Shown piece by piece: positions 40,290 through 55,820 of a stretch of 64,000 nt of DNA. A program made the position numbers and the translations under genes. Position 1 is the stretch's first letter. Every line of letters begins with the position of its first letter. Source of the DNA: Sinohyriopsis cumingii (Eukaryota; Mollusca; Bivalvia; Unionida; Unionidae); contig CM068828.1 of NCBI GenBank assembly GCA_028554795.2, positions 21,321,936 through 21,385,935 on the forward strand. The letters are read 5' to 3'. Below the pieces are notes generated by a model that did not search any database, was not told the DNA's origin, and saw only the letters and a list, made by a program, of their open reading frames with translations.

Positions 40290-40305
40290 AGCCCTGAAAA
40301 GGGCT
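40290..40305 (-). terminator. Histone-type 3' stem-loop of the 40334 gene
   Basis: Minus strand: AGCCCTTTTCAGGGCT followed by ACCCA, 28 nt after the stop codon. The purine box AGAAAAGAAA (40277-40268) starts 12 nt after the stem. Stem, TTTC loop, ACCCA tail and downstream purine box together match the animal replication-dependent histone 3' end. Confidence 0.9.
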
Positions 40306-40333
40306 GTTTTTTTTTAACTCCAGATGCAACTAT

Positions 40334-40645
40334 CTAATGATTGCACCTTCCTGGCCTGGCGCCACACACGCATCTTCTTCCCCAGTCTCCTTTCACCTTT
40401 CTTCTGGGGAGCGAAGAGGGAGGATGATTCGCTTCAGCACCCCAATCCTCTGCCTCGGGAATATTGAACGACGTCCTCTCTTCTCTTTTCTTTTCCTCCT
40501 CTTCCCTCTGTCTTCTCTCCTCCTCTTCCTTCTTTATTCTTTCTTCTTCTATTATAGCCTCCGCAGCCAGTTCATTTACCAGGCGCCTGACATATTCCAG
40601 ATGTATCTGGAGTTCAAGAAGTTTGCTTATTCTGCTACTATTCAT
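40334..40645 (-). CDS. Small Glu/Arg-rich coiled-coil protein, histone-type 3' end
   Basis: 103 residues from the first true ATG (40645). The longer open frame begins with TTG. The N-terminal third is helical and leucine-rich (ISKLLELQIHLEYVRRL). The middle is a highly charged coiled coil of E/K/R. The C-terminal part has IPEAEDWGAEANHPPSSLP and a basic, cysteine-containing end (GRRCVCGARPGRC). TATA (CTATAAATTG, 40705-40696) lies about 50 nt upstream, with a promoter box (40736-40709) shared with the 41149 gene. A related broken gene lies at 23.05-23.55 kb, so the protein is conserved in the family. Function unknown. The histone-like 3' end suggests S-phase or non-polyadenylated expression. 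Confidence 0.8.
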   Translation of the reverse strand: MNSSRISKLLELQIHLEYVRRLVNELAAEAIIEEERIKKEEEERRQREEEEKKREERTSFNIPEAEDWGAEANHPPSSLPRRKVKGDWGRRCVCGARPGRCNH

Positions 40646-40695
40646 TCTTGTGTTGATCAATCAACAAGGGTAGCTAGACTGCCGAACGAGTTTCA

Positions 40696-40736
40696 ATTTA
40701 TAGTGAAAGCGCGTATGTGAAGGAAAACATCCCCCC
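40696..40736 (-). promoter_or_regulatory. Promoter of the 40334 gene: shared box plus TATA
   Basis: On the coding strand ggggggatgttttccttcac, then atacgcgctttcac and CTATAAATTG. The same block, ggggatgttttccttcacgt then ccgcgctttgac, lies upstream of the gene at 41149. Confidence 0.8.
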
Positions 40737-41104
40737 TAAAAGCATAAAATTGATCTTACCTAGATCATGACCAAAAAAAATAACAACAACGCGCGGACCT
40801 AAAAGAAACACTCACTCACTTTTTTATTCTACCCATCACTATTTTAAAATTTTTTATAAATCACTTCAATTGACTATCCACATACTCAAAGCAATCCAAT
40901 CTAACCCCTAAATCTACACCTCAAACACCAAATAAAGACATCATTTTAATCTACTATCTACACCAACGTACTTGATCACTTACAAACACACAAACTCACA
41001 AACACATACCCTCACATTTTTGTAAAAAAGAGTGTTTATTTTCACACTACTCTACCTACACACATTGGCAAATCGATTGTTATTTCTTTTCTAGAGTATT
41101 GGGT
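40737..41104. repeat. Duplicated 3'-flank module (40948-41125 repeats 40129-40310)
   Basis: From aatctactat through cacaaacacataccctcaca, gtgtttattttcacactactctacctac and ttggcaaatcgattgttatttcttt to the stem-loop, the sequence repeats the 3' flank of the neighbouring gene. It shows that the two stem-loop genes share a duplicated 3'-end unit. 40737-40947 holds nothing recognised. Confidence 0.8.
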
Positions 41105-41120
41105 AGCCCTGAAAAGGGCT
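41105..41120 (-). terminator. Histone-type 3' stem-loop of the 41149 gene
   Basis: Minus strand: AGCCCTTTTCAGGGCT then ACCCA, 28 nt after the stop. Purine box AGAAAAGAAA at 41092-41083, again 12 nt after the stem. Confidence 0.9.
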
Positions 41121-41148
41121 GTTTTTTTTGTTTGCTATGGCATTCTTT

Positions 41149-41505
41149 TTAGTTTCTAAGAATGCGATGTCCTCTGAGGATAGACTTTCTGGCGATAGGT
41201 CTGCTTCTTCGGAAAGAGAAGAAGAACTCTTTGGTGTCGATACGACAATCGACAAAGCCTCTGTCAGTTTCAGGTTGCTGCTGCTGCTCTTGTTGTTGTT
41301 GTTGCTGCTGTCTCTGAAGTCTGTACTTCTCTGTCCATTCTTCTTTTTCCCTGTTCATTTCTTCTCTGAAGAGCTCTTCTATCAGGTCTTCAGTGATTTT
41401 TAACATTCTCACATTCTCTATTTCTTCTGGCTTCGGTATCAGACTGTGTCTGACCCTATGCAAATTCACGTAGGCTTCGTTGAGTTTAGCTAGTTTGGAG
41501 CACAT
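41149..41505 (-). CDS. Small Gln-rich coiled-coil protein, histone-type 3' end
   Basis: 118 residues starting at ATG 41505. The N-terminal part is helical (MCSKLAKLNEAYVNLHRV). A charged helix (EDLIEELFREEMNREKEEW) leads to a glutamine run (about 13 Q, encoded by CAG/CAA repeats). The C-terminus is basic (SFRRSRPIARKS...RGHRILRN). No known family. The downstream stem-loop and purine box match those of the 40334 and 54476 genes, and its upstream region carries the same promoter box as 40334. The size class, Q/E-rich coil and basic end are shared by these genes, suggesting a set of co-regulated DNA- or chromatin-associated proteins. That is inference only. Confidence 0.78.
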   Translation of the reverse strand: MCSKLAKLNEAYVNLHRVRHSLIPKPEEIENVRMLKITEDLIEELFREEMNREKEEWTEKYRLQRQQQQQQQEQQQQPETDRGFVDCRIDTKEFFFSFRRSRPIARKSILRGHRILRN

Positions 41506-41561
41506 CTTCTTAGGAGGATGAGTCGACCATGGATGGTTAGACTGGAAACTACCCCGGTTCT

Positions 41562-41600
41562 TAAAGTCAAAGCGCGGACGTGAAGGAAAACATCCCCCAC
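41562..41600 (-). promoter_or_regulatory. Promoter box of the 41149 gene
   Basis: Coding-strand ggggatgttttccttcacgt then ccgcgctttgac and a weak TATA (ctttaaga). It is nearly identical to the box upstream of the 40334 gene and to a relict at 24001. Confidence 0.75.
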
Positions 41601-41704
41601 ACGGTTTTTGAGCCTCAACGTTTAGTGAGTGTCATGAGAGGGATAGTAAGAAATGAAAGAGCATCAATCCAACATTCTTATAGCTAAACAAAAGACAAAG
41701 GCAT

Positions 41705-41888
41705 TTTTTTCAAAACACAACATTTTTTATTCAAAAATCACTTAACAGTAAACAACAACTCTAACATTTTTAACAATAATCCAACAATATAACATCAAAC
41801 AATTTTTTCAAAACACAACATTTTTTATTCAAAAATCACTTAACACTAAACAACAACAACTCTAACATTTTTTAACAATAATCCAACA
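41705..41888 (-). terminator. Duplicated polyadenylation region after the major capsid gene
   Basis: A segment of about 83 bp (ttttttcaaaacacaacatt ... aataatccaaca) occurs twice in tandem (41705-41786 and 41803-41888). Each copy has AATAAA on the minus strand (41732-41727 and 41829-41824), so the capsid transcript has two ordinary poly(A) signals. This contrasts with the stem-loop genes. Confidence 0.8.
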
Positions 41889-41937
41889 CTTAAAGTTTCT
41901 CCACTAGGTAAAGATGGATAACAGTCTTCCATGGTTT

Positions 41938-43251
41938 CTAGTAATCTAGGATGACTTCTCTCAAACTGTTGATTTCTATGGTATTATCGAATTCTGCATA
42001 CAGGATGACGTTCACCGTTTCATCAGGGTCTCGGTCTTTAAACTGAATTTCCACACGAATCTGGCCGGATTTTATAGGGTGGAAATGTCCCTCGTCGCTG
42101 CCTTGGTCTGGAGTGAAATCGAAAGCCCACAAAGCGTAGCCTCCTGCATAATCCTCGTAAGTAAAACCGTGACTGGTATTGGTTCCTAACTGTCCGGTGG
42201 CTTCGTACAGGGACAAGTACGATCTCAAGTAATTCTTCTTGGTAAAGTCAGGTTCGAAAGGTCGGGTACACAAGGTCTTGCCATCGCGACTGACTTCGAT
42301 TTTGGACACGCCAAAGTGTTGAAAGTAGAAAGGATTTTTTTCGGCAGCTCCGTTGAAGGCTGTATTCTCGACGATACCAACAATCAAACGTTTGGGTAAC
42401 TGTCCTTGGAACAGATGATCTTCGATCATGGATCGCTGTCCCTTGGGAATGGTGAAGGTTTTCACTTCCACGCGTCGTATTGGATACTTGGCAGTCGTTC
42501 TGCTCAACGTCTGACTGATGTCGTTTCCCACTTTAGGTAACACTTCCACACGGCGTACGTAGAGTCTGGCTTCTAGGATTTTGGTTTTGTAACCGTCACT
42601 ATCAGCCATCAAATGGAAAGCGGCACTGCTACGATTCAGTCTCAGGCGGACATCCACCCCGTTCAGCAAATACTTTTCTTGCAACCACATGTCCAAATGC
42701 AAACGATCCATCAGTTCTAAACTTGTGTCGGCTCCCGTGATTCTCTTTCTTCGTTCTACAAATCCATCATTGTTGTCTTTCTTTTCATCAGTTTCCAATA
42801 TTTCAAACTTGGTAGGTTCGTCAGCTTCCCATACCACACAGGCATTGAGATGAGTGTTCTTGGCATCTATTCCGTACGTCAAGAGATTTTCCAGGTAGGC
42901 ACGATAAGGGTAAGTATCCATGCTGCTACTGACCAGTTTGTTATTCAAGTACAAGTCCACTCCACTGAACAAGGAATGCATGAAATTGTTGACGGGAGCT
43001 ACTGCTTCATCGTCTATAGCACCTCCAGTCTTATCTAGAATTTAGACTTTCAGGTACAAGTAACTGCTATTCAGATCGATGTAATCTTCGGGCTGTCCTT
43101 TGATTTCAAACTCGATGGGAGCGGAATCGGTCAATGAGGAGACGGGGTGAAATTCCACCCACTGGGATTCTTGCATCGTCATCATCGTGGGGGGCATGGC
43201 AAACAGATCCAGTTCCGTCCTGGAACAAGCGCAAGATTCTCGGTGCATCAT
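41938..43251 (-). pseudogene. Polinton major capsid protein (double jelly-roll), one in-frame stop
   Basis: 437 codons counted from ATG 43251, with an internal TAA at 43044-43042 (codon 70). The frame is open on both sides and continues unshifted, so this looks like a single-base change. Family features are clear: N-terminal RESCACSRTELDLF, then QWVEFHPVSSLTDSAPIEF, DLNSSYLYLKV before the stop, AVAPVNNFMHSLFSGVDLYLN after it, and DTYPYRAYLENLLTYG. This is the hexon-like protein forming the icosahedral shell in Polinton-type viruses. It ends the capsid/integrase gene block and is followed by two AATAAA signals. The stop should prevent full-length protein unless it is read through, or is an error in the sequence. 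Confidence 0.88.
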
Positions 43252-43267
43252 TTTTTTGTCTCTTTTC

Positions 43268-43684
43268 TCAATAATCGAAAACGTCTAAGTCTCGAACGGT
43301 TCTTCTTTTCTTGGCCTTTCTCGCTTGAAGTCTGGTGAAAGGGTGTTTTCTTCGTCGTCTCTTTCTGCCTTGTCCTTGCTGAATGCCTGACTCGGTAGCG
43401 TGCAGGGCATTTATAGGTGTTTCTCGGTGACCCAAAATGTCTTTGCCCGTTTGCAGCAAGACATTTTTGCCTGCCCTCATGAAGGCTTCTTTAGGGTTTT
43501 GTTTGTCGATGATGACATTTTGGAGAAATTCTTTGCCTTGCGTCAGTGCCGCATCTTTCAAGGCGTGCAATCCGCGTGTCACCATCGGTTTCAACACCGG
43601 GGCCACCGAACGAAAGGCCGATTTTAACATATCTCCTAAACCGTGTCCTCGCTGTCGAGCAACCCCTCGGTACACTGGATACAT
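43268..43684 (-). CDS. Small basic virion-type protein (pVI/core-like)
   Basis: 138 residues. The N-terminus is short and glycine-rich (YRGVARQRGHGLGDML), followed by an amphipathic helix (FRSVAPVLKPMVTRGLHALK), a middle part predicted helical (LQTGKDILGH), and a strongly basic C-terminal third (RKRRRRKHPF, RKAKKRRTVRD). It ends 16 nt before the capsid start and begins 3 nt after the penton stop. Polintons regularly encode a protein of this build next to the capsid gene. By analogy with adenovirus pVI and core proteins it may bind membranes or condense DNA. That assignment is by position and composition, not by a clear sequence match. Confidence 0.75.
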   Translation of the reverse strand: MYPVYRGVARQRGHGLGDMLKSAFRSVAPVLKPMVTRGLHALKDAALTQGKEFLQNVIIDKQNPKEAFMRAGKNVLLQTGKDILGHRETPINALHATESGIQQGQGRKRRRRKHPFTRLQARKAKKRRTVRDLDVFDY

Positions 43685-43687
43685 GAC

Positions 43688-44611
43688 TTACGAATCGTGA
43701 GAAAACCGTTTTCGAAAATGGAGTTTCACCGTGACTTTTCCTTTGGTGAATGGAATATTTTGTCCCAAATCTCCTTTTATAGTAATGTTGACCGTGTCCA
43801 AATACGACTTACTGACAGGCAAATAGTGAGGATGTACAAATTCGCGGTGGACGTGGTAAGTGTTTCCACCTTCCTCGTCAGTGTTCGTGGCAGAATCCAC
43901 TTTGAAAGGAATGACACGCAGTAACGGTACGGAGGTGTGTCCCACCACGTTATACTCCACCACATCGGAGTACACAAACATCAAATTCAGTCCTTGGTTC
44001 AGTTCTACCGGGGCACGAAATAACTTGCTAAAAGACTCGTTGTCGTAAACGATGGGTAATTCGCTTTTCTTCATCATGCTCATTCTCAGGTTCATGTCTC
44101 CGCCCAAGATGTCATACAATTCAGGACAAAATAAAATGGACAGGATTTTACTCCGTTCAAATTTCATCAAGAAGCGACGAGCTGTTTTGTGGTACTCCAG
44201 GGTGACACTTTTGTTAACATGCTCCAAAGCTTTCAGAAACACGGCATTAAACCTAGAGGCTATGGTGCTGACCAAATGTTGACCACTAAAATAATAGCCT
44301 GGGGAAATGAACAAGTGATAGGTGGTGTACTTTTGTGTACGGGTTTTCTTGTCATATTTGACATTGCTATCCATCCACTGTTGCAATTGTTCGTCATGAA
44401 CTTCCACATCAAAAAAATTTTGATTGGGAAGGACATTGAGGACTTGGGTCGGGTGAATCATTTCTACTAAAGCCACTTCCCAATGGGCTTCGTGATCTAA
44501 GGGGATGGCTTGAGGTAATTTGGCCGTGTAACAGCACAACGTGTTCTTGGGAAACACCTCCATGGAACTGTCACTGGGTAAGGTTAAGTAAAATTGGTTT
44601 TGGTGACTCAT
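43688..44611 (-). CDS. Polinton minor capsid (penton-type) protein
   Basis: 307 residues from ATG 44611. The start overlaps the stop of the upstream gene (ATGA). The N-terminal signature is characteristic of the Polinton minor capsid protein: FYLTLPSDSSMEVFPKNT, then YTAKLPQAIPL and HWEVALVEMIHP. The C-terminal region has the LDTVNITIKGDLGQNIPF and VTVKLHFRK strand pattern typical of the single jelly-roll vertex protein. Length is about normal for the family. Its product would occupy capsid vertices beside the major capsid protein encoded downstream. The reading frame is intact, unlike the major capsid gene. Confidence 0.88.
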   Translation of the reverse strand: MSHQNQFYLTLPSDSSMEVFPKNTLCCYTAKLPQAIPLDHEAHWEVALVEMIHPTQVLNVLPNQNFFDVEVHDEQLQQWMDSNVKYDKKTRTQKYTTYHLFISPGYYFSGQHLVSTIASRFNAVFLKALEHVNKSVTLEYHKTARRFLMKFERSKILSILFCPELYDILGGDMNLRMSMMKKSELPIVYDNESFSKLFRAPVELNQGLNLMFVYSDVVEYNVVGHTSVPLLRVIPFKVDSATNTDEEGGNTYHVHREFVHPHYLPVSKSYLDTVNITIKGDLGQNIPFTKGKVTVKLHFRKRFSHDS

Positions 44612-45012
44612 AATTCCAGAGTTCTGTGGCTGTCCGAGGGGTTAGTGGACGTCAGAGGCGTGTCTCCGCCCAAAATGGGGTTCTGGTTGTGGTTGGAGTG
44701 GTGACTGGCACTGGCACTGGACACAAGGTTCCCGTTGGAGGTGAATTTCAGGGAGGGATTAGGAAGCAGGTAACCGATGCAACTGCTCAATAAAATAGTC
44801 CACAATTGTTTGTCTCCTTGTTGCAAACTCAAATTGGCGATGGCTGCCCCGATGACACAATACACCACGAAGATTTGGCAGAAAAAGACGATTTGCGTTT
44901 TAGGCACACGTTCTCCACACCACACCCACAAGGGTTGTTTTTGTAAATCTTGCACAGAAGAACTGGGTGAAGGAGGAGTGGTCGACGTAGCTGCGTCTGT
45001 GTGAAAAGGCAT
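44608..45012 (-). CDS. Polinton small transmembrane protein
   Basis: 134 residues from the first ATG (45012). The longer frame starts with GTG inside the integrase stop region. After a Ser/Pro/Thr-rich N-terminus come LWVWCGERVPKTQ and two hydrophobic spans (IVFFCQIFVVYCVIGAAIANL and WTILLSSCIGYLLPNP). The ending IGYLLPNPSLK is a recurrent signature of small membrane proteins in Polintons. The C-terminal tail is Ser/Asn/His-rich. It lies directly after the integrase gene and overlaps the penton gene start by 4 nt. A role in virion membrane or assembly is possible but unproven. Confidence 0.78.
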   Translation of the reverse strand: MPFHTDAATSTTPPSPSSSVQDLQKQPLWVWCGERVPKTQIVFFCQIFVVYCVIGAAIANLSLQQGDKQLWTILLSSCIGYLLPNPSLKFTSNGNLVSSASASHHSNHNQNPILGGDTPLTSTNPSDSHRTLEL

Positions 45013-45017
45013 GATGG

Positions 45018-46115
45018 TCACTTCTTTTTATAGTCGATGACTTGCGAAGCGTCGATCCAAGAATCAAAACTGGGTGGATATCCTTTCCAACGTACTTTGA
45101 CTTCTTTGACACGTCGTTTGCCCACTTTACGGGTTCTGCGTTCGAGAATGTTTTCGATGTCGTACACGTCGTCTTCTTTTTTGGTGACACGTTGTAACTC
45201 GGGCAAATAAAACGTTCCTTTGAGCACTTCTCCGTTCATGTCTTCCAATTTATAGACGGCAGGATGACGGCCATGCACTCGTCCAGTGACGCGAAACAAT
45301 TCGGTCGTCCAGTTAGGTAAGTAACCTTTGTCGAAAGTGCGTTTGGTTTTGCCAATGCGCACCCAATCTCCTACGGCCAACATTCCACTTTTCTCGGGGA
45401 CAGCCCTCGTCGGGGACGTACCGAACAGACGCTCAAACACCAACACTTCGTTGTCGGGAGTCACGTCTTGCGGGGCACGTCCGATGCTTCGATGGTAAGA
45501 TTGTTTGTACGCTTGCACCAGGTGCGGTAAGATGTCGATGTGCTTCAGAGTGTGGTGATGCGTAAAATATTTCCACATGCGTTCTTTCAAAGTGCGTTGA
45601 AAACGTTCCACGATGCTGGCTTTCTCGGTGGTAAAAAAATGAATGTCACGTTTCTTTAATTCTTTTTGGAAAGCTTGGTTCAGAAATTCGGTGCCTTTGT
45701 CCGTTTGCCATCGAAGAGGGTGACGACCGCTTTGTTTCAACACCCGTTGCAGGGCTCGCACTAACTCGCTGCTCGATTTGGAAGTCAAGGGCACGACCCA
45801 GGCAAATTTGGAAAAGACGTCGATGACACAAAACAAATATTTGTAGCCACGATTGTAGCTGGCCAAATGAGAGACATCGGCTAAATCGGCTTGCCATTGA
45901 TGATCGATGCCTTCCACTCGGGTGCGACTTCTGGCAAACTTGCGTCGAATGGGTTTGTGTAAAGTGTAGGTAGCTTGTTCTTGTAACCATCGTTGCACTT
46001 GAGGTAAACGGAGACTTTTCAGTCGCGTTTTGGCAGCACGATACAATTTTTGAACTCCTGCGTAACCTGCAGGATGGGAAGGATCGTAGTAAATGCTGGC
46101 TAAGACTTTTTCCAT
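45018..46115 (-). CDS. Retroviral-type integrase with chromodomain
   Basis: 365 residues, intact. The N-terminal helical region is followed by the DDE core: WQADLADV (about residue 74), WQTDKGTEF (about 138) and ASIVERFQRTLKERMW (about 165), with the usual spacing. An SH3-like region precedes a C-terminal chromodomain (VYDIENILERR, VKVRWKGYPPSFDSWI, about 315-360). This enzyme inserts the element and makes the 6-bp target duplications seen at both ends. The chromodomain may guide target choice. It sits between a conserved unknown gene (21-nt gap) and the small membrane protein gene. Only the chromodomain tail is variable in the family. Identification is firm. Confidence 0.95.
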   Translation of the reverse strand: MEKVLASIYYDPSHPAGYAGVQKLYRAAKTRLKSLRLPQVQRWLQEQATYTLHKPIRRKFARSRTRVEGIDHQWQADLADVSHLASYNRGYKYLFCVIDVFSKFAWVVPLTSKSSSELVRALQRVLKQSGRHPLRWQTDKGTEFLNQAFQKELKKRDIHFFTTEKASIVERFQRTLKERMWKYFTHHHTLKHIDILPHLVQAYKQSYHRSIGRAPQDVTPDNEVLVFERLFGTSPTRAVPEKSGMLAVGDWVRIGKTKRTFDKGYLPNWTTELFRVTGRVHGRHPAVYKLEDMNGEVLKGTFYLPELQRVTKKEDDVYDIENILERRTRKVGKRRVKEVKVRWKGYPPSFDSWIDASQVIDYKKK

Positions 46116-46136
46116 TTTTGTGTGTTGGTTGGTGTG

Positions 46137-46781
46137 TTAATAAGACACCCACTCTTGGAGGATGCTACTCTTTTTCTCTTGGGGTATTTTCTTGGATTGC
46201 AATGCTTTGCGTGTGCGGCCAGCAATAGGTGTCGAAGAGGAGAAGGATGTCTGAGCGGGGGATATCGGTTCTTGTTTCACTTCTGTCTTCACTTCTGTCT
46301 TCACTTTCTTTCTCTCTTGTGAGGAAGAAGGGGTGGCCATCATCTTTTTAATCCATCCAATTCTGGAGGTAGGTGGTGTTGTTAACTTGCGTACTTTTTC
46401 TGGTGGAGTTTGAAACCCTTCCTCTTCTTCTCCTTTTTCTGTCTTGGTCACGGGTACTGGTGGTACTGGTACTGGTACTGGTACTGGTGATGGTGCTGGA
46501 CTTTTCATCAAGGTCTTAAAATCTTTCAGAGTGGGTAGAGCTGTTTCGTCTAAAGCTTTCTGGTGAAAGAGTTGCAGTCGTTGCAAGAGTTGACCGTACT
46601 TTTGCGATTTTTCTGTTTCGGACAAATCTTGGCGATCCATCAAGGACTGCAGTTCGTGTTGTAACTGGGACATCTCGCTCAAATGGAGATTGGGAGGTAA
46701 ATGCGGGGTGTGTTGTTCTTGCCACCGATGGTATTCCATCCATCGTTTGTAAGGCACTAAAGCTAGTTTTCGTTCTTCCAT
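46137..46781 (-). CDS. Conserved Polinton protein of unknown function
   Basis: 214 residues from ATG 46781, 45 nt downstream of a TATA-like AGATAAAAAGG. The N-terminus begins RKLALVPYKRWMEY, a start also common in other Polinton proteins, followed by helices (LSEMSQLQHELQSLM, QKYGQLLQRLQLFHQKAL). The middle is a PV-rich linker (PVPVPVPVPPVPV). Near the C-terminus is TPIAGRTRKALQSKKI. It is the first gene of a closely packed block running to the capsid gene (gaps of 21, 5, -4, 3 and 16 nt). No enzyme motif seen. Probably a virion or regulatory protein. Confidence 0.75.
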   Translation of the reverse strand: MEERKLALVPYKRWMEYHRWQEQHTPHLPPNLHLSEMSQLQHELQSLMDRQDLSETEKSQKYGQLLQRLQLFHQKALDETALPTLKDFKTLMKSPAPSPVPVPVPVPPVPVTKTEKGEEEEGFQTPPEKVRKLTTPPTSRIGWIKKMMATPSSSQERKKVKTEVKTEVKQEPISPAQTSFSSSTPIAGRTRKALQSKKIPQEKKSSILQEWVSY

Positions 46782-46824
46782 GGGGTTGTCAGGGGTCGAT
46801 TCTGAGATCTTGGAACTTCCGAGG

Positions 46825-46835
46825 CCTTTTTATCT
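46825..46835 (-). promoter_or_regulatory. TATA-like box overlapping the upstream gene's stop codon
   Basis: Coding-strand AGATAAAAAGG. Its TAA is the stop codon of the 46830 gene. It is about 45 nt before ATG 46781 and is the likely promoter for the capsid/integrase block. Confidence 0.65.
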
Positions 46836-47216
46836 TGCTCCCACCAGTCCTCCCAACATGGTTCCCAAGACTCCTTTCAGTATGGGGCCTAACAAGAGAG
46901 GTAAAATACCTCCACGTTGCACTAATATCTTCTTTTTTTGACGAATGGGAATTTTCTTTTGAACCATTTGGCGAAGAACGTGACGATGTTTGCCTAAGCA
47001 TTGTTTCTGGTGTTTGGACAAAGGGATCGTGCCTTTCAAAACGTTCAAACAACATTCGCACACGGTATCGATGACCTCTTTGGAGGCTGTTTGAATGAGG
47101 TTTTTTCGTAGGGGTGGAGAAGCTTTGGACAGGACAGATAACATGTCCCCATGTTTGGCTAAACGTGGTGGCAGTCCTTTCCTTTTCTTTCCTTGGGGTT
47201 TTCTGGAGGGTGACAT
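46830..47216 (-). CDS. Conserved Polinton protein with Lys-rich C-terminal 'RGG' hydrophobic module
   Basis: 128 residues from ATG 47216. The longer frame begins with GTG and would start inside the promoter region, so the ATG that opens SPSRKPQGKK is chosen. Order: basic N-terminus, a helical part with three cysteines (DTVCECCLNVLKGTIPL), a second helical part (HVLRQMVQKKIPIRQKKKIL), then VQRGGILPLLLGPIL and a glycine/leucine-rich tail. The KKKILVQRGG-hydrophobic arrangement recurs in Polintons and adintoviruses. It is related in form to the C-terminal module of the neighbouring 47275 gene. It may be a virion protein with a membrane-active tail. Function is inference. Confidence 0.72.
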   Translation of the reverse strand: MSPSRKPQGKKRKGLPPRLAKHGDMLSVLSKASPPLRKNLIQTASKEVIDTVCECCLNVLKGTIPLSKHQKQCLGKHRHVLRQMVQKKIPIRQKKKILVQRGGILPLLLGPILKGVLGTMLGGLVGAR

Positions 47217-47268
47217 CTTTGAGTCTTCAGGAGCACCAAAAAACACTGATACCCGACTTGGTCACAGT

Positions 47269-47280
47269 CCTTTTTTATAC
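47269..47280 (-). promoter_or_regulatory. TATA box containing the stop codon of the 47275 gene
   Basis: Coding-strand GTATAAAAAAGG. TAA at 47277-47275 is the stop of the upstream gene. ATG 47216 lies about 55 nt downstream. Confidence 0.75.
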
Positions 47281-48246: not shown

Positions 48247-48252
48247 ATTTTT

Positions 48253-48996: not shown

Positions 48997-49042
48997 GGTG
49001 TGAGAAATGTCACTTGTGACACGAAAAACAAACAAGACAAGA

Positions 49043-49052
49043 GTTTATATAC
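49043..49052 (-). promoter_or_regulatory. TATA box of the packaging ATPase gene
   Basis: Coding-strand GTATATAAAC, about 50 nt before ATG 48996. Confidence 0.75.
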
Positions 49053-49066
49053 TTTTTCAGAACACG

Positions 49067-49072
49067 TTTATT
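49067..49072 (-). terminator. Polyadenylation signal after the polymerase/membrane-protein genes
   Basis: AATAAA on the minus strand, 8 nt after the stop of the 49080 gene and just upstream of the ATPase TATA box. Confidence 0.7.
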
Positions 49073-49079
49073 GAATGTT

Positions 49080-49424
49080 TCAAACATGAATACGAAAGAC
49101 AAAAATACATAAAAGCCAAAGGCTTAAGTACAAGAATAAAAGGCACATGATAACCATGAACGTGGAATAAACACAAGTGTCTGTACAACATGTTTTGGGT
49201 AAAGTTCTAACCAGTTCTATAGTAGGGGGTAAGGTCACACAAGTGTCCTCCCCAAAGGGTCTTTCAGGCCTGTCCACGACAGTCCCGTCCTGGGTGACGG
49301 GTTCTTCTGGCACCGTCACTAACACAGGTTGAAAAGTAACTTTTTTCCTTGAATAACTCTCGTGCATACTGGGCCACCTCTTGTGTCCAAGCCTCAAAAC
49401 CCTGGTCTCGGTGATGTCCAACAT
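49080..49424 (-). CDS. Unknown protein with C-terminal membrane anchor
   Basis: 114 residues if begun at the first in-frame ATG (49424). The open frame extends to 49508 without an ATG and overlaps the end of the polymerase gene, so a spliced or frameshift origin is possible. The C-terminus has a single hydrophobic span (STFMVIMCLLFLYLSLWLLCIFVF) preceded by a cysteine pair (KTCCTDTC), giving a tail-anchored type. The middle is Pro/Glu/Val-rich (VPEEPVTQDGTVVDRPERPF). I do not recognise the family. It sits at the 3' end of the polymerase transcript just before an AATAAA. Confidence 0.5.
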   Translation of the reverse strand: MLDITETRVLRLGHKRWPSMHESYSRKKVTFQPVLVTVPEEPVTQDGTVVDRPERPFGEDTCVTLPPTIELVRTLPKTCCTDTCVYSTFMVIMCLLFLYLSLWLLCIFVFRIHV

Positions 49425-49491
49425 TTGACTCCTAACCAATCTGGTTTCTTCTTCGTCAACGACATGGTAAGTTACATCAATGAACAATGAA

Positions 49492-52275
49492 CTATCGATC
49501 TTGCCTAGGGTTCCTTTTCATATACAGACCAATACCGACGTGACCGTACGGTAAGGTGAAGTGATTGGGAAGTCGCACTCGCTTCTGGTATACAATTTGA
49601 TAGACTTTTTCCAAGGGTCGACTGACGATGTGGTGAGTGGGTAAACGTACAATCTTGTTCGTTTGATAAGTGGTCACTTTAAAGTTTCCATCCTCTCCCG
49701 ATTGCAAGGCTTCTTTCAATACCCCAAAGTTGACCACTCGACTGGTACGATGATTCAGAGTCAGTCCTTTCACTTTGCACGTCGTGTGCACTTCTCCTTG
49801 TTTGTCCCGGTATTCGTAGCCGTAATTTTTGGGACCACCACTGACGAAACTTAGAATCTTGTCGTCGGGATGCTCGTCTGTCCAGGCTCCTAAACGGTCT
49901 CCTTCGATGTCAGGGTGCTGTTGAATCGGGTGATGGATGTAAATGCAACTGTCCGTGTCAAAGTACAGGACGCGTTCTTCTAACAGTTCTAAAGCTTCGT
50001 ACAATTTTAATCGAGCATGGGCTGTCACGTAAGCCGCAATGATGACATTTCCAAAAGGGTCGTCTTGTACAAAGTCCAGATCTTCTTCGTAATTGACCAA
50101 GATCAAATCCTCTCGAACGACGTCCACGTGTTTCATGTATTTGGTTTTGTCGTGAATCATCTGGAAGTAGCGGGAAGGTTCTGTCAAATATTCCGTCTTG
50201 GGTAAACACGGTCGTTGTGCCATTTTACCCCACAAGCAATTTAACATCACTTTGGCAAACGATCGCCTGCCTTCGTTTTTTTCGATGTGGTCTAAAGAGA
50301 TGCCTTCTTGTGCATAGTATTTCTCTTTGAATTGTATTTGGTCTTCGGGAGTGTGACACCAGGAAGGATAGCCGCTGGCTTCTTGTTTCAGTTTCAAAAA
50401 GGCATCCACGTAGTCGGCGAAAATGCCTTTCTGAGTAGGGTCACCCTTGTGGTACTGTTGTGTCTTGGGAAAGTGGCAAATTTCGTACACTTCTAACAGT
50501 TGGTATCCCATGTCCAGAGCTTTGAACAATTCCACGCTGACCCAGGTTCCCGTCAAGGCCCGTTCTTCCTGGCTGTGATGGCAAGGTTGGTCCTGGTTGC
50601 ACGTTTCGGCACAAGTACGGCACAAGGGAAACATCAGTTTGCCTTGACAATGGTGAGGTAAGACGGGATGGTATAGGTTCGTGGGAGGCAAAACTTTACA
50701 CTTGATCAAGCCTTCGTATTGTCGAATGTTTTTCAGGTCGATGTGTTCCGTGAACAATTGCGGGTGCCCTACAGGAAAGCGACAATATTTGCACACGTAG
50801 GGATACAGCGAACACACGTCCAAGTATTTGATTTCTTCTCCTTTCTCTTCGTCGGCTTGGTACAGCAAACAGGTGGCATTGGTCCTTCCTCCGTACAAAC
50901 TATCCCTCGGGTTCAGCGGGTCCATGAACTGGTAACTTTCCACGAGGCGTTTAAACTCGGGATCGGTTTTCAAACGGTGATCGTACTCGTGTTCCCACAT
51001 TTCCACCACTTGGTATCCTTGCTGTTCTAACTTTAGGCGTCGCTGACAAGTGTCCTGGTACAAGTCTTCCATGGTTCGTTGCATAAACTGATTTTTAGTG
51101 TCACGGTCAGGGTAACAGACGGGACATCCGTGAAATAAGCAACCGTTAAACTCGTACACGATCTTGGGGTTTTCCAAGTCCCAGCCATCTACCGAATACG
51201 TTCCGATGGTCATTTCGCCTCCTCCGTTGCGGGCATGCTGAATCCATTTGTCTTCCTTGTCGCAGAAGTAATGTAACCAACGTAGGGCTTTGACCGAGTA
51301 TTGACGTTTGACAAAGTGGGTCGCTTGGGGACTGATGACAGCCACGGTGTTTTCAGGCATGAATCTTTGGCGGTACACTAAGGAACACGCTTTGGCAATG
51401 GTGCAAGCTTCTTTCAAAGGATCGACCCCTCCGTGTTCCATGAACAGTTCTCGAAATTTTCCACAGCAACGTCGTAAAATGTCCACGTCGGAACGACAAT
51501 ACTTTAACATTTCTTCCTGAAAGTCGAAGGGGTCAGAGGCATGAGCCTGGTACCAAGCGTAGAAAGCTTCTCGTTGTTCGGTACGCATGTTGTCGGGGTC
51601 GCAATAGTGAGCCTCAGGTAAATGGGGTAGAACGGCATGTTGATTGGCTTCCGTATTGAAAAAGTGTGGAAAGTACCCTTTAGCCATTTCTGTCATTCCA
51701 AACGTTTTAGGCATTCGACTCAAAGGCATGGCCAAGTAACTCATCGAATCTTTAAACTGTACTTGTCCCACTTGCATGAAAATGATTTTGGCTCCGTTCA
51801 AAGTGACTTTAGGACGTTCGGTGCCTTGTTCCGTATAGTATCTGAGAAGAAACTGTCCATCGTATCCGGAGAAATTGTGAGCCATCACCGTGGCATGACG
51901 ATGACAATCTCCGTAACGTTCGATGTCCTCTTGGCTCCACGTCTTGTCGATGGGGTCTAAGACCCATTGGGCAAAATCGGCTAACGTGTTTGGTCCCCGA
52001 AAGATTTTTTCACGCCCTCCGGGAATCTTGCTGCAGTGAGGGCAATGACTGAAGATAGGTTCTTGAATGCACTTCTCGCACGCTCGATGAGCCACGCAGA
52101 AATTAGGAATGTGAATGCCGGTCTCTTGCATGCATTCGAAATCGAAAAAGATGAAATTGCCTTTCTTCTTGTGACCGTCCTCTTTCTCTAGTGGGGGTTG
52201 GTATTTTTGCACGTAGCATTGGTGTTCCAAGTCCACGGTGCGGTGACAAATGTGACATTTCTTTTTCCTGAACAT
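49492..52275 (-). CDS. polB: Polinton DNA polymerase B, exonuclease and polymerase domains
   Basis: 927 residues from ATG 52275. The true gene begins further upstream (53558), and this is its main open part. It starts with a zinc pair (CHIC ... HQC). The 3'-5' exonuclease follows: FIFFDFECM (D45, E47), HNFSGYDGQF (about 153) and YCRSDVDIL (about 262). The family-B polymerase motifs come next: A, DVCSLYPYVC (about 503); B, KVMLNCLWGKM (about 680); C, YFDTDSCIYI (about 777). This is the protein-primed polymerase type that replicates Polinton DNA from its ends. All catalytic residues are present. Relative to the upstream zinc-finger part the frame is shifted by one near 52262-52290, at an A-rich run. 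Confidence 0.93.
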   Translation of the reverse strand: MFRKKKCHICHRTVDLEHQCYVQKYQPPLEKEDGHKKKGNFIFFDFECMQETGIHIPNFCVAHRACEKCIQEPIFSHCPHCSKIPGGREKIFRGPNTLADFAQWVLDPIDKTWSQEDIERYGDCHRHATVMAHNFSGYDGQFLLRYYTEQGTERPKVTLNGAKIIFMQVGQVQFKDSMSYLAMPLSRMPKTFGMTEMAKGYFPHFFNTEANQHAVLPHLPEAHYCDPDNMRTEQREAFYAWYQAHASDPFDFQEEMLKYCRSDVDILRRCCGKFRELFMEHGGVDPLKEACTIAKACSLVYRQRFMPENTVAVISPQATHFVKRQYSVKALRWLHYFCDKEDKWIQHARNGGGEMTIGTYSVDGWDLENPKIVYEFNGCLFHGCPVCYPDRDTKNQFMQRTMEDLYQDTCQRRLKLEQQGYQVVEMWEHEYDHRLKTDPEFKRLVESYQFMDPLNPRDSLYGGRTNATCLLYQADEEKGEEIKYLDVCSLYPYVCKYCRFPVGHPQLFTEHIDLKNIRQYEGLIKCKVLPPTNLYHPVLPHHCQGKLMFPLCRTCAETCNQDQPCHHSQEERALTGTWVSVELFKALDMGYQLLEVYEICHFPKTQQYHKGDPTQKGIFADYVDAFLKLKQEASGYPSWCHTPEDQIQFKEKYYAQEGISLDHIEKNEGRRSFAKVMLNCLWGKMAQRPCLPKTEYLTEPSRYFQMIHDKTKYMKHVDVVREDLILVNYEEDLDFVQDDPFGNVIIAAYVTAHARLKLYEALELLEERVLYFDTDSCIYIHHPIQQHPDIEGDRLGAWTDEHPDDKILSFVSGGPKNYGYEYRDKQGEVHTTCKVKGLTLNHRTSRVVNFGVLKEALQSGEDGNFKVTTYQTNKIVRLPTHHIVSRPLEKVYQIVYQKRVRLPNHFTLPYGHVGIGLYMKRNPRQDR

Positions 52276-52499
52276 ACGTGTGCCTTGGTACTATTGGTAC
52301 GTATGCATTGTCTACACGTAGAGCACAATCTCAAGAGTTGACAAGCACATTTCTGCTGTGAACCTTGCGTCTTCAGATGTTGTTGGTAACAGGTAGGACT
52401 GACAAACGTGCGCAAACAAGTCGAACAAGGCACTGGTCCTTCGCTCAGACAGGGTGGAGAGGCCAAACATCCTGGGCATTTCATTCCACAATGCTTGTT
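52262..52499 (-). pseudogene. polB: Polymerase B zinc-rich linker, cut off by stop and frameshift
   Basis: This frame continues without shift from the N-terminal segment after an in-frame TAA (52502-52500) and carries the conserved zinc-finger cluster of Polinton polymerases: KCPGCLASPPC, PCSTCLRTF, CYQQHLKTQG, LCSTCRQCI and AHVC. It then runs out of frame relative to the 49492-52275 part near CAGGAAAAAGAAATG (about 52260-52275), an A-run prone to indels. Together with the TAA it shows the gene is interrupted twice within 240 bp. Programmed frameshifting is not excluded, but the A-run is not a classical slippery heptamer in this frame. Confidence 0.8.
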
Positions 52500-53558
52500 T
52501 TACTCTCGATTGTTATAACCATAGTCACATTTCTCACAATAATAACTGTATCCCAGGAATCCAGTGATACTGGTAATGGTATCGAAATGGTCATCGTGAT
52601 GATAGACATGAATGTATTTTCCGTCCTTAAAATCTTGGCCTCGAAACAACAGAGTTCCACGCATTTCTTGAGGGTGCACTTTCAAGGTGTAGCGTGGAGC
52701 TAGGGCATCTTGCAATTTTTGCATCTCAGGAATGCCACAGGGTGTGTCTTTGGACAGTCCGGCTTGTTGTAACAGGAGTTCTGCTTCATTTCGTTGTTTG
52801 GCTCGGTCGGATTGTTGAATATTGTTCCAGGTTCTTTTCCATTCTACCGTGTCGTTCTTGTTGGCATAGGTTCGTCCCACCACGATGGCACGGGCTAAAC
52901 ACATCTGGTCTTGAGGGTTGATAATTCGGACGAGACTCTTTTTGGTGTTGCGAAGGTCGTCCACCAATAACATCTTTTTGCGTCCTGTCCCTTGAGGAGG
53001 AGAGACGTGGGCCATTTTCAGTGTGGCTTTACCATCGGTGATGTCAAACTGGTCATTAGATTGTTGCACCTGTTGTATCTTGTCCATGACTTTGGAAGGG
53101 GTCAGTTCTGCGGGTCTGCTAAACTCGATCCAAACAGGGGATTTCAAACCGTCGTGATGTATGGATAGTGTCAAGCGATCGTCTTCTTTGGCTTGACATT
53201 GTCGCTTGAGTGCGGTGAGCAAAGAATCCCACATCTCGGTGATAAACCCTTCTGCTTTCTCCAAGGGTACGTCGGCCTTGAAATCTTTAAACTTCACCGT
53301 GTAGGTGTAAGCCGTGGTTCTAAATTTTCTAGAGGAGCGCTTTTCCGTCTCTCGAATGGAATAGTACTTTTCAGGGTTGACTAAGGGTGGTGAACTTGGT
53401 TTAGAGGGTTCGGATTCTGGTTCACTCATGTCCTCTTCAAAATCACTGGCATGAATTTGTGCCAAGATTTCAGCCCTGGTACGAGGCGATAGATCACGTT
53501 TCTGCCTCTTACTTTCTTCTTCTTCTTCTTTCTTCTCGAATGAATAGGATCGTTTCAT
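52500..53558 (-). CDS. polB: Polinton DNA polymerase B, N-terminal region
   Basis: 352 residues from ATG 53558, ending at an in-frame TAA (52502-52500) where the family continues. After a charged N-terminus (KKEEEEESKRQKRD) comes the conserved N-terminal domain of Polinton polymerases: TYTVKFKDFKADVPLEKA, TLSIHHDGLKSPVWIEF, CLARAIVVGRTYAN, then CGIPEMQKLQDALAPRYTL, KYIHVYHHDDHFDTITSIT and the zinc-binding YYCEKCDYGYNN. In the family this region precedes the exonuclease and may include terminal-protein or priming functions (inference). TATA (CTATAAATTAG, 53613-53603) lies 45 nt upstream, back to back with the promoter of the 53694 gene. A relict copy lies at 26.2-26.6 kb. Confidence 0.88.
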   Translation of the reverse strand: MKRSYSFEKKEEEEESKRQKRDLSPRTRAEILAQIHASDFEEDMSEPESEPSKPSSPPLVNPEKYYSIRETEKRSSRKFRTTAYTYTVKFKDFKADVPLEKAEGFITEMWDSLLTALKRQCQAKEDDRLTLSIHHDGLKSPVWIEFSRPAELTPSKVMDKIQQVQQSNDQFDITDGKATLKMAHVSPPQGTGRKKMLLVDDLRNTKKSLVRIINPQDQMCLARAIVVGRTYANKNDTVEWKRTWNNIQQSDRAKQRNEAELLLQQAGLSKDTPCGIPEMQKLQDALAPRYTLKVHPQEMRGTLLFRGQDFKDGKYIHVYHHDDHFDTITSITGFLGYSYYCEKCDYGYNNRE

Positions 53559-53602
53559 CTTGAGTGCAAAATGTCAAATGACTCAAGTTTAAACACCATA
53601 GA

Positions 53603-53638
53603 CTAATTTATAGTCTTGGCAAACCATCGTATATAAAA
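53603..53638. promoter_or_regulatory. Bidirectional promoter between polB and the CCHC gene
   Basis: The minus-strand TATA CTATAAATTAG (53613-53603) and the plus-strand TATA GTATATAAAAAG (53629-53640) are only about 16 bp apart. Confidence 0.75.
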
Positions 53639-53693
53639 AGGGTGTGTGTCTTGTCCTTTCACTATTCATTTCACTCTCAAGCCGAGCACAACG

Positions 53694-54185
53694 ATGGAAG
53701 AGACTACCCAGATGGAACGTTTCGTCAGAGCTTTGCGAGGGGTCATTAGAAAATTCTCTTCAGACCAGCCGACGGACTACTCTCCTTCCTTTCGAGATAA
53801 AAGTCAAGATACTTGCTATATCTGTCAGAAGAAAGGGCATTGGTCTTCAGAGTGTCCAGACCGTCAAAAAAGAAAAAAAACAGGGGCTAAAAAAGACAAA
53901 AGTCAAGATACCTGTTATTATTGTAAAGAAAAAGGACATTGGTCTCCAGATTGCCCAAAAAAGAAACAAGAGGAGTCAGAAGAAAAGAAGGATTCTTCAG
54001 AAGAAGAGAGGGATTCTTCGGAAGAAGAGAGGGATTCTTCGAAAGAAGAGAGGGATTCTTCAGAGGAAGAAGAGGAAGAAAGAAGACAATTCTATTTAAA
54101 AGAGGCAAAGAAACAGGAGAAGAAAAGAAGAAGGGAAGAAAATGAGGAAAAAACGGTGAAGAAATTCAAAAAACAGAGAGACTAA
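53694..54185 (+). CDS. Protein with two CCHC zinc knuckles and acidic Ser/Glu repeats
   Basis: 163 residues from ATG 53694. The frame is open from 53646 but without an earlier ATG, and TATA at 53631 fits a start here. Two retroviral-type knuckles, CYICQKKGHWSSEC and CYYCKEKGHWSPDC (C-x2-C-x4-H-x4-C), are each preceded by DKSQDT, showing an internal duplication. Then come four repeats of RDSSEEE or similar, and a K/R/E-rich C-terminal part (KKQEKKRRREENEEK). CCHC knuckles bind single-stranded nucleic acid. It is the only long internal plus-strand gene of this Polinton. It could package or chaperone RNA or DNA. No stem-loop or clear AATAAA follows it. Confidence 0.8.
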   Translation: MEETTQMERFVRALRGVIRKFSSDQPTDYSPSFRDKSQDTCYICQKKGHWSSECPDRQKRKKTGAKKDKSQDTCYYCKEKGHWSPDCPKKKQEESEEKKDSSEEERDSSEEERDSSKEERDSSEEEEEERRQFYLKEAKKQEKKRRREENEEKTVKKFKKQRD

Positions 54186-54432
54186 ATAATGAGAAAGAAG
54201 AAGTGTACGAACTTTTTAAAGTGTTCTGTGGTGAATTGTGAATTGGATTGTAAAAAATTCATAAAAGAATACATGAATGATATAAGGTAAGTGTCTTTGA
54301 GTTTTGATTTTAAAATAAGAAGCTACACTCAAGCACTCATACACAGACACGTACTATAAGGGTAAAATGGGTGGGGTTTATTTTTGAGTTATTGGCAAAT
54401 TGAAATTGTATTTCTTTTCGAGAAATGTGGGT
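54186..54432. other. Short intergenic region with conserved stem-loop flank
   Basis: Contains ggtaagtgtc (donor-like) at about 54287 and the conserved downstream flank of the 54433 stem-loop (ttattggcaaattgaaattgtatttcttttcgag), also found beside the stem-loops at 40290 and 41105. Confidence 0.6.
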
Positions 54433-54448
54433 GGCCCTGAAAAGGGCC
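54433..54448 (-). terminator. Histone-type 3' stem-loop of the 54476 gene
   Basis: Minus strand: AAAAAA, then GGCCCTTTTCAGGGCC, then ACCCAC, 27 nt after the stop codon. Purine box CGAAAAGAAA at 54420-54411, 12 nt past the stem. This copy fits the canonical animal histone stem-loop at every stem, loop and ACCCA position. Confidence 0.92.
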
Positions 54449-54475
54449 TTTTTTCTTTATGGTGTAGGAGTGAGT

Positions 54476-55036
54476 TTAACCAATCAACTTTAACTGCCTT
54501 AAGCCTTTGCCACGGCCAAGGCCTACTTCTGATGATTGGGTTGAAATCACTAAGGGTGGTACGACAGGCTTAGTCACAGGGTTGGCGTGTTTAGCTCGGG
54601 AAGGTCGTATTCTCTTCGGTCGTGATAAAGAAGTCTGATACATTTGTTTCAGACTTCTTAACTCCGCTAAAATGTCCAACAGTACCGTAGCCGTTTGATT
54701 TTCACCCTCTTGTTTCTTTGCTGCTACTTCTTCTTGCTGTTGTTGCTGTTGTTTTTTTCTTACCTCTTCTTGTTGCTGTTGCTGTTGCTGTAGGAGAAAA
54801 GCTTGTTCCGCTTCCTTTTGTCGTTGCATAAATTTCTCCAATTCTTCTTTCTGTCTCTGTCTAAAATTCTCCACTTGCGGTAATGAAGAAGGTAACGAAG
54901 GTTCCGGAACAAATTCTTGCGAGGTAAGAAAATCCACAAAATCCCAATGTACCTCTTCTGAAAGTAAGTCCGGGTTCCCTTGGGCAGTCTCCCCTGCTGG
55001 TGCACCCCAATGGATCGTTTTCTGAGTTTCTGTCAT
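54476..55036 (-). CDS. Gln-rich coiled-coil protein, histone-type 3' end
   Basis: 186 residues from ATG 55036. An N-terminal acidic/hydrophobic part (SEEVHWDFVDFLTSQEF) is followed by a long coiled coil (ENFRQRQKEELEKFMQRQ) with two glutamine runs (7-8 Q each), a helix with leucines (TVLLDILAELRSLKQMY), and a basic, Arg/Lys-rich C-terminus (RPKRIRPSRAKHAN, GLGRGKGLRQLKLIG). No known family. TATA (TCTATATAGA, 55092-55083) is about 50 nt upstream, next to an E-box/CRE. It shares 3'-end type and general build with the 41149 gene. A DNA- or chromatin-binding role is possible from composition only. Confidence 0.78.
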   Translation of the reverse strand: MTETQKTIHWGAPAGETAQGNPDLLSEEVHWDFVDFLTSQEFVPEPSLPSSLPQVENFRQRQKEELEKFMQRQKEAEQAFLLQQQQQQQEEVRKKQQQQQQEEVAAKKQEGENQTATVLLDILAELRSLKQMYQTSLSRPKRIRPSRAKHANPVTKPVVPPLVISTQSSEVGLGRGKGLRQLKLIG

Positions 55037-55082
55037 GTTGAATCACTGTCGCATAGATTGACTGCACACAAGCGCTAACGAA

Positions 55083-55211
55083 TCTATATAGACCACGTGA
55101 CGTCACAGACTGCTCTCTTCGGATTGGATGCGAGATGACTGAATTTTGTAACGCGTGTTCGGATTGGTGAATGAATTCAATCTGTTTCAATCCTTCCTGT
55201 ACCTATAAATA
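55083..55211. promoter_or_regulatory. Divergent promoter: TATA boxes, CRE/E-box and CCAAT boxes
   Basis: Minus-strand TATA (55083-55092), overlapping E-box CACGTG (55094-55099) and CRE TGACGTCA (55098-55105), two inverted CCAAT boxes (cggattgg, about 55120 and 55160), and plus-strand TATAAATA (55204-55211). It serves the 54476 gene to the left and the TIR gene to the right. ATF/CREB, NF-Y and bHLH sites are typical of cell-cycle and stress-responsive promoters. Confidence 0.65.
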
Positions 55212-55255
55212 AGCGCAGTTCACTGCATTGATTCACCTATTCTCGTCGCTTCAAG

Positions 55256-55492
55256 ATGTGGACCACAGTTGAGTCATCCACCCTTGTGTCTTCCATGATG
55301 TTTAGGACGGACATGCTCATGTATGTCAGGTCCAAGTGGACTGTTGTTGATAGGACAGATACTAGTCAATGGATGAGGAGAGTTTACATAGAGAGACAAG
55401 GATGTCTCAAGAGGGTACTTGTGTATGGACCGGCAGTTAGAAGGAGTTTAAGAAGAAGAAGAAGAAGATGTGACAGATGCCATCTATGTTAA
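55256..55492 (+). CDS. Arg-rich small protein encoded across the TIR edge, histone-type 3' end
   Basis: 78 residues. Only the first five codons and the promoter are unique. The rest lies inside the right terminal inverted repeat, so a headless copy exists in the left repeat. The sequence is MWTTVESSTLVSS..., with a helical part (YVRSKWTVVDRTD) and a highly basic C-terminus: KRVLVYGPAVRRS then a run of six arginines and CDRCHLC (a possible zinc-binding C-x2-C-x2-C). TATA at 55204 is 45 nt upstream. The stop codon lies in a 22-bp palindrome, and the stem-loop follows after 24 nt. A protamine- or histone-tail-like nucleic-acid-binding role is suggested by composition only. Confidence 0.72.
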   Translation: MWTTVESSTLVSSMMFRTDMLMYVRSKWTVVDRTDTSQWMRRVYIERQGCLKRVLVYGPAVRRSLRRRRRRCDRCHLC

Positions 55493-55820
55493 TATTAATA
55501 TTAACATAAACCCAAAGGCCCTTTTCAGGGCCAGCCATATTTCTCGAAAAGAGATAGCCTTTCCATTGCCTACCCCTTTTTTAAAAAAATTTAAAAAAAA
55601 AAAAATCCCATGTTCAATTTCCCTTGACGCTATAAAGTCCCACCCTGTTTAAATTCCTTTGACGCTAAACCGTCCCACGATTTTTCTCCATGTTAATTTC
55701 CCTTGACGCTAATCTGACCCACGATTTTTCTCCATGTTAAATTTCCCTTGACGCTAATCTGACCCAGGGATCTCTGTAATGCTAATTCCCATTGACGGTA
55801 AAGTGCCCCCATTTACTACT
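55269..55820 (-). repeat. Right terminal inverted repeat
   Basis: About 552 bp matching the reverse complement of 38403-38952. It ends GCCCCCATTTACTACT. It contains the body of the Arg-rich gene, the palindrome, the stem-loop with purine box, a poly-A tract and the 45-bp sub-repeats (ttagcgtcaagg on the minus strand). Confidence 0.93.
55517..55532 (+). terminator. Histone-type 3' stem-loop in the right TIR
   Basis: CCCAAA, GGCCCTTTTCAGGGCC, AGCCA on the plus strand, 24 nt after the stop of the Arg-rich gene. Purine box CGAAAAGAGA at 55545-55554, 12 nt past the stem. The 5' flank CCAAA also agrees with histone mRNAs. The box contains AAAAGAG, complementary to the CUCUUUU of vertebrate U7 snRNA. 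Confidence 0.9.

Follow-up and report, generated by a model that had tools for sequence, protein, structure and literature searches.

In the bivalve Sinohyriopsis cumingii, a Polinton element carries small accessory genes near its two ends, and the sequence comparisons strongly support the identification of their 3' signal as the histone type. The element lies in the stretch analysed here (contig CM068828.1, positions 21,321,936 to 21,385,935, 64,000 nucleotides (nt); hereafter the window). To our knowledge the histone 3' end is, as in the textbooks, nearly exclusive to histone genes. The identification rests above all on the agreement of hairpin type, histone downstream element (HDE) and spacing with those of the host's own H1, H2A, H2B, H3 and H4 genes. 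The parts follow each other in a fixed order and at fixed spacing on genes that do not encode histones: a promoter module (in four gene families), an open reading frame (ORF), a stem-loop and an HDE (the last two in six families). The small accessory genes at the ends of the Polinton are thus very probably expressed in the manner of histone genes.

A sequence-only reading of the window had placed sense-oriented hairpins behind four small genes, here called g108, g118, g186 and the TIR gene (after the terminal inverted repeat, TIR), and all four were found at those places and on those strands (stops at 40334, 41149 and 54476, minus strand, and 55492, plus strand; distances in Table 1). The stem and TTTC loop are as described, with ACCCA following in three of the four and AGCCA in the fourth. 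Two further hairpins are absent from that reading, an exact duplicate of the TIR-gene hairpin in the left repeat and a relict with one mismatch outside the element. With up to two mismatches allowed, the hairpin pattern matches the window 6 times, against 0.03 matches expected from shuffled windows. The Rfam histone 3' model RF00032 (gathering cut-off 34 bits) matches all four gene sites, two above the cut-off and two below; the five exact window sites have E values of 9.6e-9 to 6.4e-5 and the relict 0.038, and 3 of the 6 sites score above the cut-off (41.2, 35.6 and 35.6 bits, against 31.1, 31.0 and, for the relict, 23.5). The four genes have no Pfam family above cut-off, hence no histone match, as the same reading had maintained. 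Hairpins follow 5 of the 18 window ORFs that were checked, all of them terminal accessory genes (two being repeat copies of one gene), and none was found in the 400 nt past the stop codons of the remaining 13. Other copies of the element hold two more hairpin-bearing accessory families, MASN and MDVEY, named for residues near their starts.

Behind the stem lies a purine-rich HDE. In mouse, U7 base-pairs through its CUCUUU with the HDE core AAAGAG, and the transcript is cut between stem-loop and HDE (PMC7026596). Among 63 distinct element sites (exact [AG]GCCCTTTTCAGGGC[CT] only, at least 120 nt of downstream sequence needed, identical contexts counted once), the core AAAGAR occurs within 32 nt of the stem in 57, compared with a mean of 2.4 and a maximum of 8 after shuffling, and in 1 and 1 sites in the next two windows of 32 nt. 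The distance from stem to RAAAAG is 13 nt at 55 of these sites and 14 nt at 3; the motif was not found at 5. The same holds for a sample drawn from C1 (every fifth among the first 100 listed genome hairpin sites, n = 20; hereafter the C1 sample), in which 18 of 20 sites have AAAGAA or AAAGAG in the 32 nt that follow the stem, compared with 1.1 on average and 4 at most after shuffling, and the following two windows contain no core at all.

The host's histone genes provide the standard of comparison. A search of the host genome (2.9 Gb; 18 scaffolds of more than 70 Mb among those seen) gave 114 matches to H4, many of them in tandem about 8.3 kb apart. In the unit that was read (L105, C531:14400-22900), H4, H2B, H2A, H1 and H3 lie on a single strand within a tandem unit of about 8.3 kb, and all five are followed 27-38 nt past the stop by a hairpin of this type, with none on the opposite strand. 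The H2B hairpin, GGCCCTTTTCAGGGCC, is an identical 16-mer to that of the element; H3 and H4 share GGCCCTTTTTAGGGCC, H2A has GGCCCTTTTAAGGGCC and H1 GGTCCTTTTCAGGACC. GAAAAG follows the stem after 13 nt in H4, H2B and H3 and after 14 nt in H2A and H1. The element genes therefore share with metazoan replication-dependent histone genes the stem-loop type, the HDE core, the spacing of 13-14 nt, the distance from stop to stem and the shortness of the ORF; they differ in that their proteins are not histones and that the genes lie inside a mobile element. The palindrome is also present in histone mRNAs of the bivalve Lucina (PMC6210712). RF00032, orientation, stop distance, HDE core and the agreement with all five host genes together bear out the proposal that the 3' signal is of the histone type.

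The hairpin is abundant in the host genome, and its position relative to genes is not random. Its 14-base core occurs 56,759 times, the reversed word 3 times. In host DNA fetched up to locus L084 (297,556 bases counting L009, a duplicate of the window that was left unscanned; L039-L044 excluded), and leaving out sites less than 40 nt from a locus end, 60 hairpins with five or six of the six stem pairs intact were found, 54 of which lie no more than 60 nt after the sense stop of an ORF of at least 50 amino acids (aa); the mirror-image antisense control on the same hairpins gave 1 of 60. In the C1 sample a stop lies 21-38 nt upstream in the sense direction in 19 of 20 sites and in the antisense direction in none. 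When element copies were picked by their polymerase rather than by the hairpin, 20 of 20 had g186 with a hairpin 25-27 nt past the stop; 18 of these hairpins are exact and 2 carry substitutions that leave G-U pairs (one of the two also has a loop change). Among the first 100 listed sites there are 18 pairs of minus- and plus-strand hairpins separated by 1,066-1,104 bp, as at the end where g186 and the TIR gene diverge. RF00032 scored 75 of 589,472 candidate sites in the genome, all 75 above the cut-off, and every one of the 28 scored sites that were read lies in accessory genes of the element. The 29 loci centred on the polymerase, each about 5.8 kb long, contain no hairpin.

Since the hairpins are concentrated at the two ends of the element, these palindromes might instead act as DNA, in recombination, packaging or replication. 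The link to the stop codon is strand-specific, however, as are the HDE and the promoter module described below, and a role at the DNA level is exceedingly improbable. The sheer number of cores also raises the idea of a decoy, in which transcribed genomic hairpins sequester SLBP or U7 and upset the host's histone supply, gene expression being secondary. We regard this as very unlikely: the hairpins are fixed in sense behind ORFs, and a decoy needs neither ORFs nor promoters nor a set distance to the stop. Many copies are probably silent as well, and decoying could be a side effect.

Covariation of the stem bases between copies, which the sequence-only reading had noted, was retained for the outer pair only, where 3 of 13 rows have A-U in place of G-C; pair counts lend no support to covariation beyond the outer pair. 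At least one such covarying pair appeared in 301 of 500 shuffles, and the outer-pair count of 3 in 13 is weak by itself. In the C1 sample the outer pair, which lies outside the search word, is G-C in 8 of 20 sites and A-T in 12 of 20. Outside this sample two A-C mismatches occur, in L001 and L007.

The accessory genes of the left end have a common upstream module that the sequence-only reading does not mention. The 24-base sequence GATGTTTTCCATCACGTCCGCGCT is found at -107 of the host H2B gene and, with one mismatch (23/24), at -105 of H1, and it is exact (24/24) at four element sites (L001, L004, L005 and L008). The left-end genes thus share with the host's replication-dependent histone genes the promoter module of H2B and H1. 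With up to 4 mismatches there are 15 sites in L001-L008; sites are present in L001, L004, L005, L006 and L008 as well as in the window, upstream of g118 with one mismatch and of g108 with three, and usually a TATA box lies just downstream. Ten Markov-resampled windows gave no match at up to 5 mismatches. The genome contains 30,227 copies of a 23-base form of the module (A or T allowed at one position) and none of the reversed form. Of the 49 listed module sites in the part of C1 that the lists of modules and of hairpins both cover, 41 are followed after 100-1300 nt by a same-strand hairpin and none by one on the opposite strand. The host H4 gene and the region upstream of g108 have a different sequence in common, the 21-mer TTTCTTTTAGGTCCGCGCGTT, which is distinct from the module. 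A reading of the module as E2F-like was dropped, as its letters do not support this when set against the E2F consensus. The divergent promoter between g186 and the TIR gene (55036-55256) contains CACGTGACGTCA, which we take to be an E-box and a CRE-like (cAMP response element) motif, with TATA-like boxes on both sides.

These observations suggest how the genes might be expressed. Each consists of a short ORF, then an SLBP-type stem-loop and, 13 nt on, a U7-type purine element, with the host H2B/H1 promoter module in addition on the left-end genes. Host SLBP would bind the hairpin loop, and the U7 small nuclear ribonucleoprotein (snRNP) would pair with the GAAAAGA element, the 5' end of host U7 being predicted to be complementary to CTAGAAAAGA. 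CPSF73 would then cut between stem-loop and GAAAAGA to leave an mRNA without poly(A), which would be produced and kept stable chiefly during S phase, the time at which the DNA of the element can be replicated; the core genes would use other 3' ends. The promoter module shared with host H2B and H1 lends S-phase tuning indirect support. We consider it likely that a regulatory shell of host histone genes (stem-loop and U7 element in six families, module in four) was copied onto non-histone genes, creating S-phase, poly(A)-less messages for the terminal genes, and that tens of thousands of such signals were spread through the genome. Copying from host histone genes to the element appears the most likely direction.

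Borrowing of a 3'-end signal has a precedent of a different kind. The nearest one that we found is offered, by analogy, by the virophage Sputnik, 16 of whose genes end in the hairpin polyadenylation signal of Mimivirus (PMC6723459). Sputnik too is a small virus that borrows its 3'-end signal from the machinery on which it relies, although it takes the signal from a giant virus and its product is polyadenylated, whereas here the source would be the histone pathway of the animal host. A hairpin of the element's own viral kind, serving polyadenylation or termination as in Mimivirus and Sputnik, would fit this parallel. It gains from the fact that Polintons are relatives of virophages, but it leaves unaccounted for the match of hairpin, HDE and spacing to the host histone genes and the lack of a hairpin at the other 13 checked ORFs of the window. 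We know of no Mimivirus or Sputnik hairpin with the SLBP loop, ACCCA or an HDE, and such an origin is extremely unlikely.

Several points weigh against expression of the terminal genes in the manner of histone genes. The element copies are related, so the site counts are not independent. Across 20 young copies and the window, the hairpin with its flanks shows 0.0073 changes per column and sequence against 0.0107 and 0.0056 in downstream sequence; conservation of the hairpin among young copies is not clearly above that of its surroundings and is thus uninformative. The comparison with the host draws on one histone unit among the 114 H4 matches, and some of the 63 sites (none of the C1 sample) came from RF00032, whose model spans the HDE. 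The module was not found, at up to 9 mismatches, within 160 nt upstream of host H3 or H2A (the opposite strand has a copy with 4 mismatches 168-191 nt upstream of H2A), nor, at up to 7, in the divergent promoter of g186 and the TIR gene. In a weak search, the U7 model RF00066 gave no match in the host (65 of 801,960 candidates scored) and likewise none in any of 14 control genomes. AATAAA or ATTAAA lies within 400 nt of 2 of the 13 hairpin-less window ORFs, the presumed capsid gene among them, and a split into two clean classes of 3' end is not supported.

Furthermore, AATAAA or ATTAAA lies no more than 104 nt after the stem at 24 of the 63 sites, for the most part at a single position in g186 (13/23) and in g118 (5/8); some polyadenylation is therefore possible. 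The hairpin might then sit inside an ordinary polyadenylated 3' untranslated region (UTR), the downstream AATAAA being used and the hairpin affecting only stability or translation. Yet the other 39 sites have no such signal there, including 10 of 13 for the TIR gene and 9 of 10 for g108, and the HDE, which is useful only for U7 cleavage, has been kept at a fixed spacing. Host H4 too has AATAAA/ATTAAA downstream, 64 and 119 nt past its stop. An ordinary polyadenylated UTR is accordingly improbable, and we prefer histone-type 3' ends.

Table 1. Coordinates of the Polinton, its genes and signals, and the relict cassette, numbered from the first nucleotide of the window
Feature	Position	Strand	Remarks
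Decayed older accessory cassette, outside the element	24005..24469 (region to 24500)	+	Module (6 mismatches), ORF remnant from 24083, hairpin
Relict hairpin	24454..24469	+	One mismatch
Target-site duplication, left copy	38397..38402		ACTATT, 6 bp
Polinton element	38403..55820		17,418 bp; termini AGTAGT...ACTACT
Left terminal inverted repeat	38403..38952	-	About 550 bp; holds a TIR-gene copy truncated 5', plus hairpin
Left-repeat hairpin	38689..38704	-	Exact duplicate of 55517-55532
g108 HDE-like element	40266..40276	-	GAAAAGAAATA
g108 histone-type hairpin	40290..40305	-	28 nt past stop; outer pair A-U
g108 accessory gene	40334..40660	-	103 aa from first ATG, 108 aa from upstream TTG; C-terminus CVCGARPGRC
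g108 histone promoter module	40708..40731	-	21/24 bases as in host H2B
g118 HDE-like element	41081..41091	-	GAAAAGAAATA
g118 histone-type hairpin	41105..41120	-	28 nt past stop; outer pair A-U
g118 accessory gene	41149..41505	-	118 aa
g118 histone promoter module	41571..41594	-	23/24 bases as in host H2B
347-aa frame, presumed major capsid	41938..42981	-	AATAAA at +108 and +206 after gene; no hairpin
Penton protein, core gene	43688..44611	-	Mavirus-penton-like model; no hairpin
rve integrase with chromodomain, core gene	45018..46115	-	PF00665 1.1e-14, chromodomain 1.2e-7; no hairpin
A32-type packaging ATPase, core gene	48253..49035	-	PF04665 2.5e-6; no hairpin
DNA polymerase B, core gene	49492..52275	-	PF03175 1.5e-42; no hairpin
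g186 HDE-like element	54409..54419	-	GAAAAGAAATA
g186 histone-type hairpin	54433..54448	-	27 nt past stop
g186 accessory gene	54476..55036	-	186 aa; predicted single long helix, disordered ends
TIR gene	55256..55492	+	78 aa, C-terminus Arg-rich; no Pfam match; partly inside inverted repeat
Right terminal inverted repeat	55269..55820	+	About 550 bp
TIR-gene histone-type hairpin	55517..55532	+	24 nt past stop
TIR-gene HDE-like element	55546..55556	+	GAAAAGAGATA
Target-site duplication, right copy	55821..55826		ACTATT, perfect match to left

The element itself has the gene content of its family. It shares with Polinton/Maverick elements and adintoviruses the family B DNA polymerase, the rve integrase with chromodomain, the A32-type ATPase, the penton protein, the inverted repeats and a 6-bp target duplication, which is typical for Polinton/Maverick; it differs from them in the histone-type gene cassettes at its ends. 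The penton-like protein was modelled by AlphaFold with a mean pLDDT of 87.8, and its top Foldseek match is the mavirus penton (E 3.4e-10, TM-score 0.48). The 347-aa frame, presumably the major capsid protein, has no Pfam match and 414 homologues, of which 120 were listed, including proteins of the bivalves Mercenaria, Crassostrea, Ostrea and Saccostrea; the listed ones are mostly 410-475 aa long, the frame in the window being part of such a protein. Between the polymerase and g186, a gene at 53646-54185 (+), which runs against the direction of the core genes, encodes two CCHC zinc knuckles (PF00098, E 1.8e-13) and a Lys/Glu/Ser-rich tail, and no hairpin follows it. A long minisatellite-like stretch of repeating GTACCCGCTCACGTACGATTGTGTGAATAGTAGATTATGG... 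units, judged by eye, occupies 38960-40180 between g108 and the left inverted repeat. Among the accessory proteins, g186 has 20 homologues among database proteins from genomes and metagenomes, and its predicted structure, one long helix with floppy ends, suggests no readable function. A pairwise test of g108 against g118 found no similarity (E 3.5) and thus no support for their paralogy.

Many of the copies appear to be young. In the window an N-terminal frame of 352 aa is split from the polymerase frame; many other copies have a single frame of 1359-1360 codons. The 49 polymerase matches scored among 43,499 candidates in the host genome (the window's own included) are 98-100% identical, and 45 of them have no internal stop. 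For 20 equal-length copies among 30, the mean pairwise difference is 0.0109, with 1096, 498 and 4159 differences at codon positions 1, 2 and 3; selection therefore kept the gene until recently. The 56,759 hairpin cores and 30,227 modules would imply element copies on the order of ten thousand.

The arrangement has also left an older trace. Outside the Polinton the window contains a cassette with module, ORF remnant and hairpin (Table 1), the remnant being 39% identical over 59 residues to a current MASN protein (E 4e-12). This cassette is decayed, and the arrangement is therefore older than the present burst. In P0013, a homologue of g186, the frame continues through what would be a hairpin- and HDE-like stretch (...WPISGPPTSLEKRYY); read from the protein, this is suggestive only, hinting that the arrangement may exist in a more distant element. 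Six stretches with the hairpin pattern in IMG/VR viral contigs were taken as chance, the four inspected having no GAAAAG element. No relatives of the polymerase, g186 or the penton protein were confirmed in viral contigs, nor any of g186 in genome contigs. Among titles and abstract openings of open-licence papers no report was found of histone-type 3' ends in Polintons, adintoviruses, transposable elements or viral non-histone genes, and the adintovirus papers among those listed, with PMC11071296, yielded none of histone-type cassettes.

If the terminal genes are expressed in this way, selfish DNA would have a direct route to tie its expression to host DNA synthesis, and the messages concerned would escape poly(A)-selected RNA-seq. 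The element hairpins offer many natural test substrates for the rules of SLBP and U7. The load of histone-type signals in this genome would appear unusual, and tens of thousands of SLBP-type hairpins may burden a host pathway in which supply is usually kept in balance.

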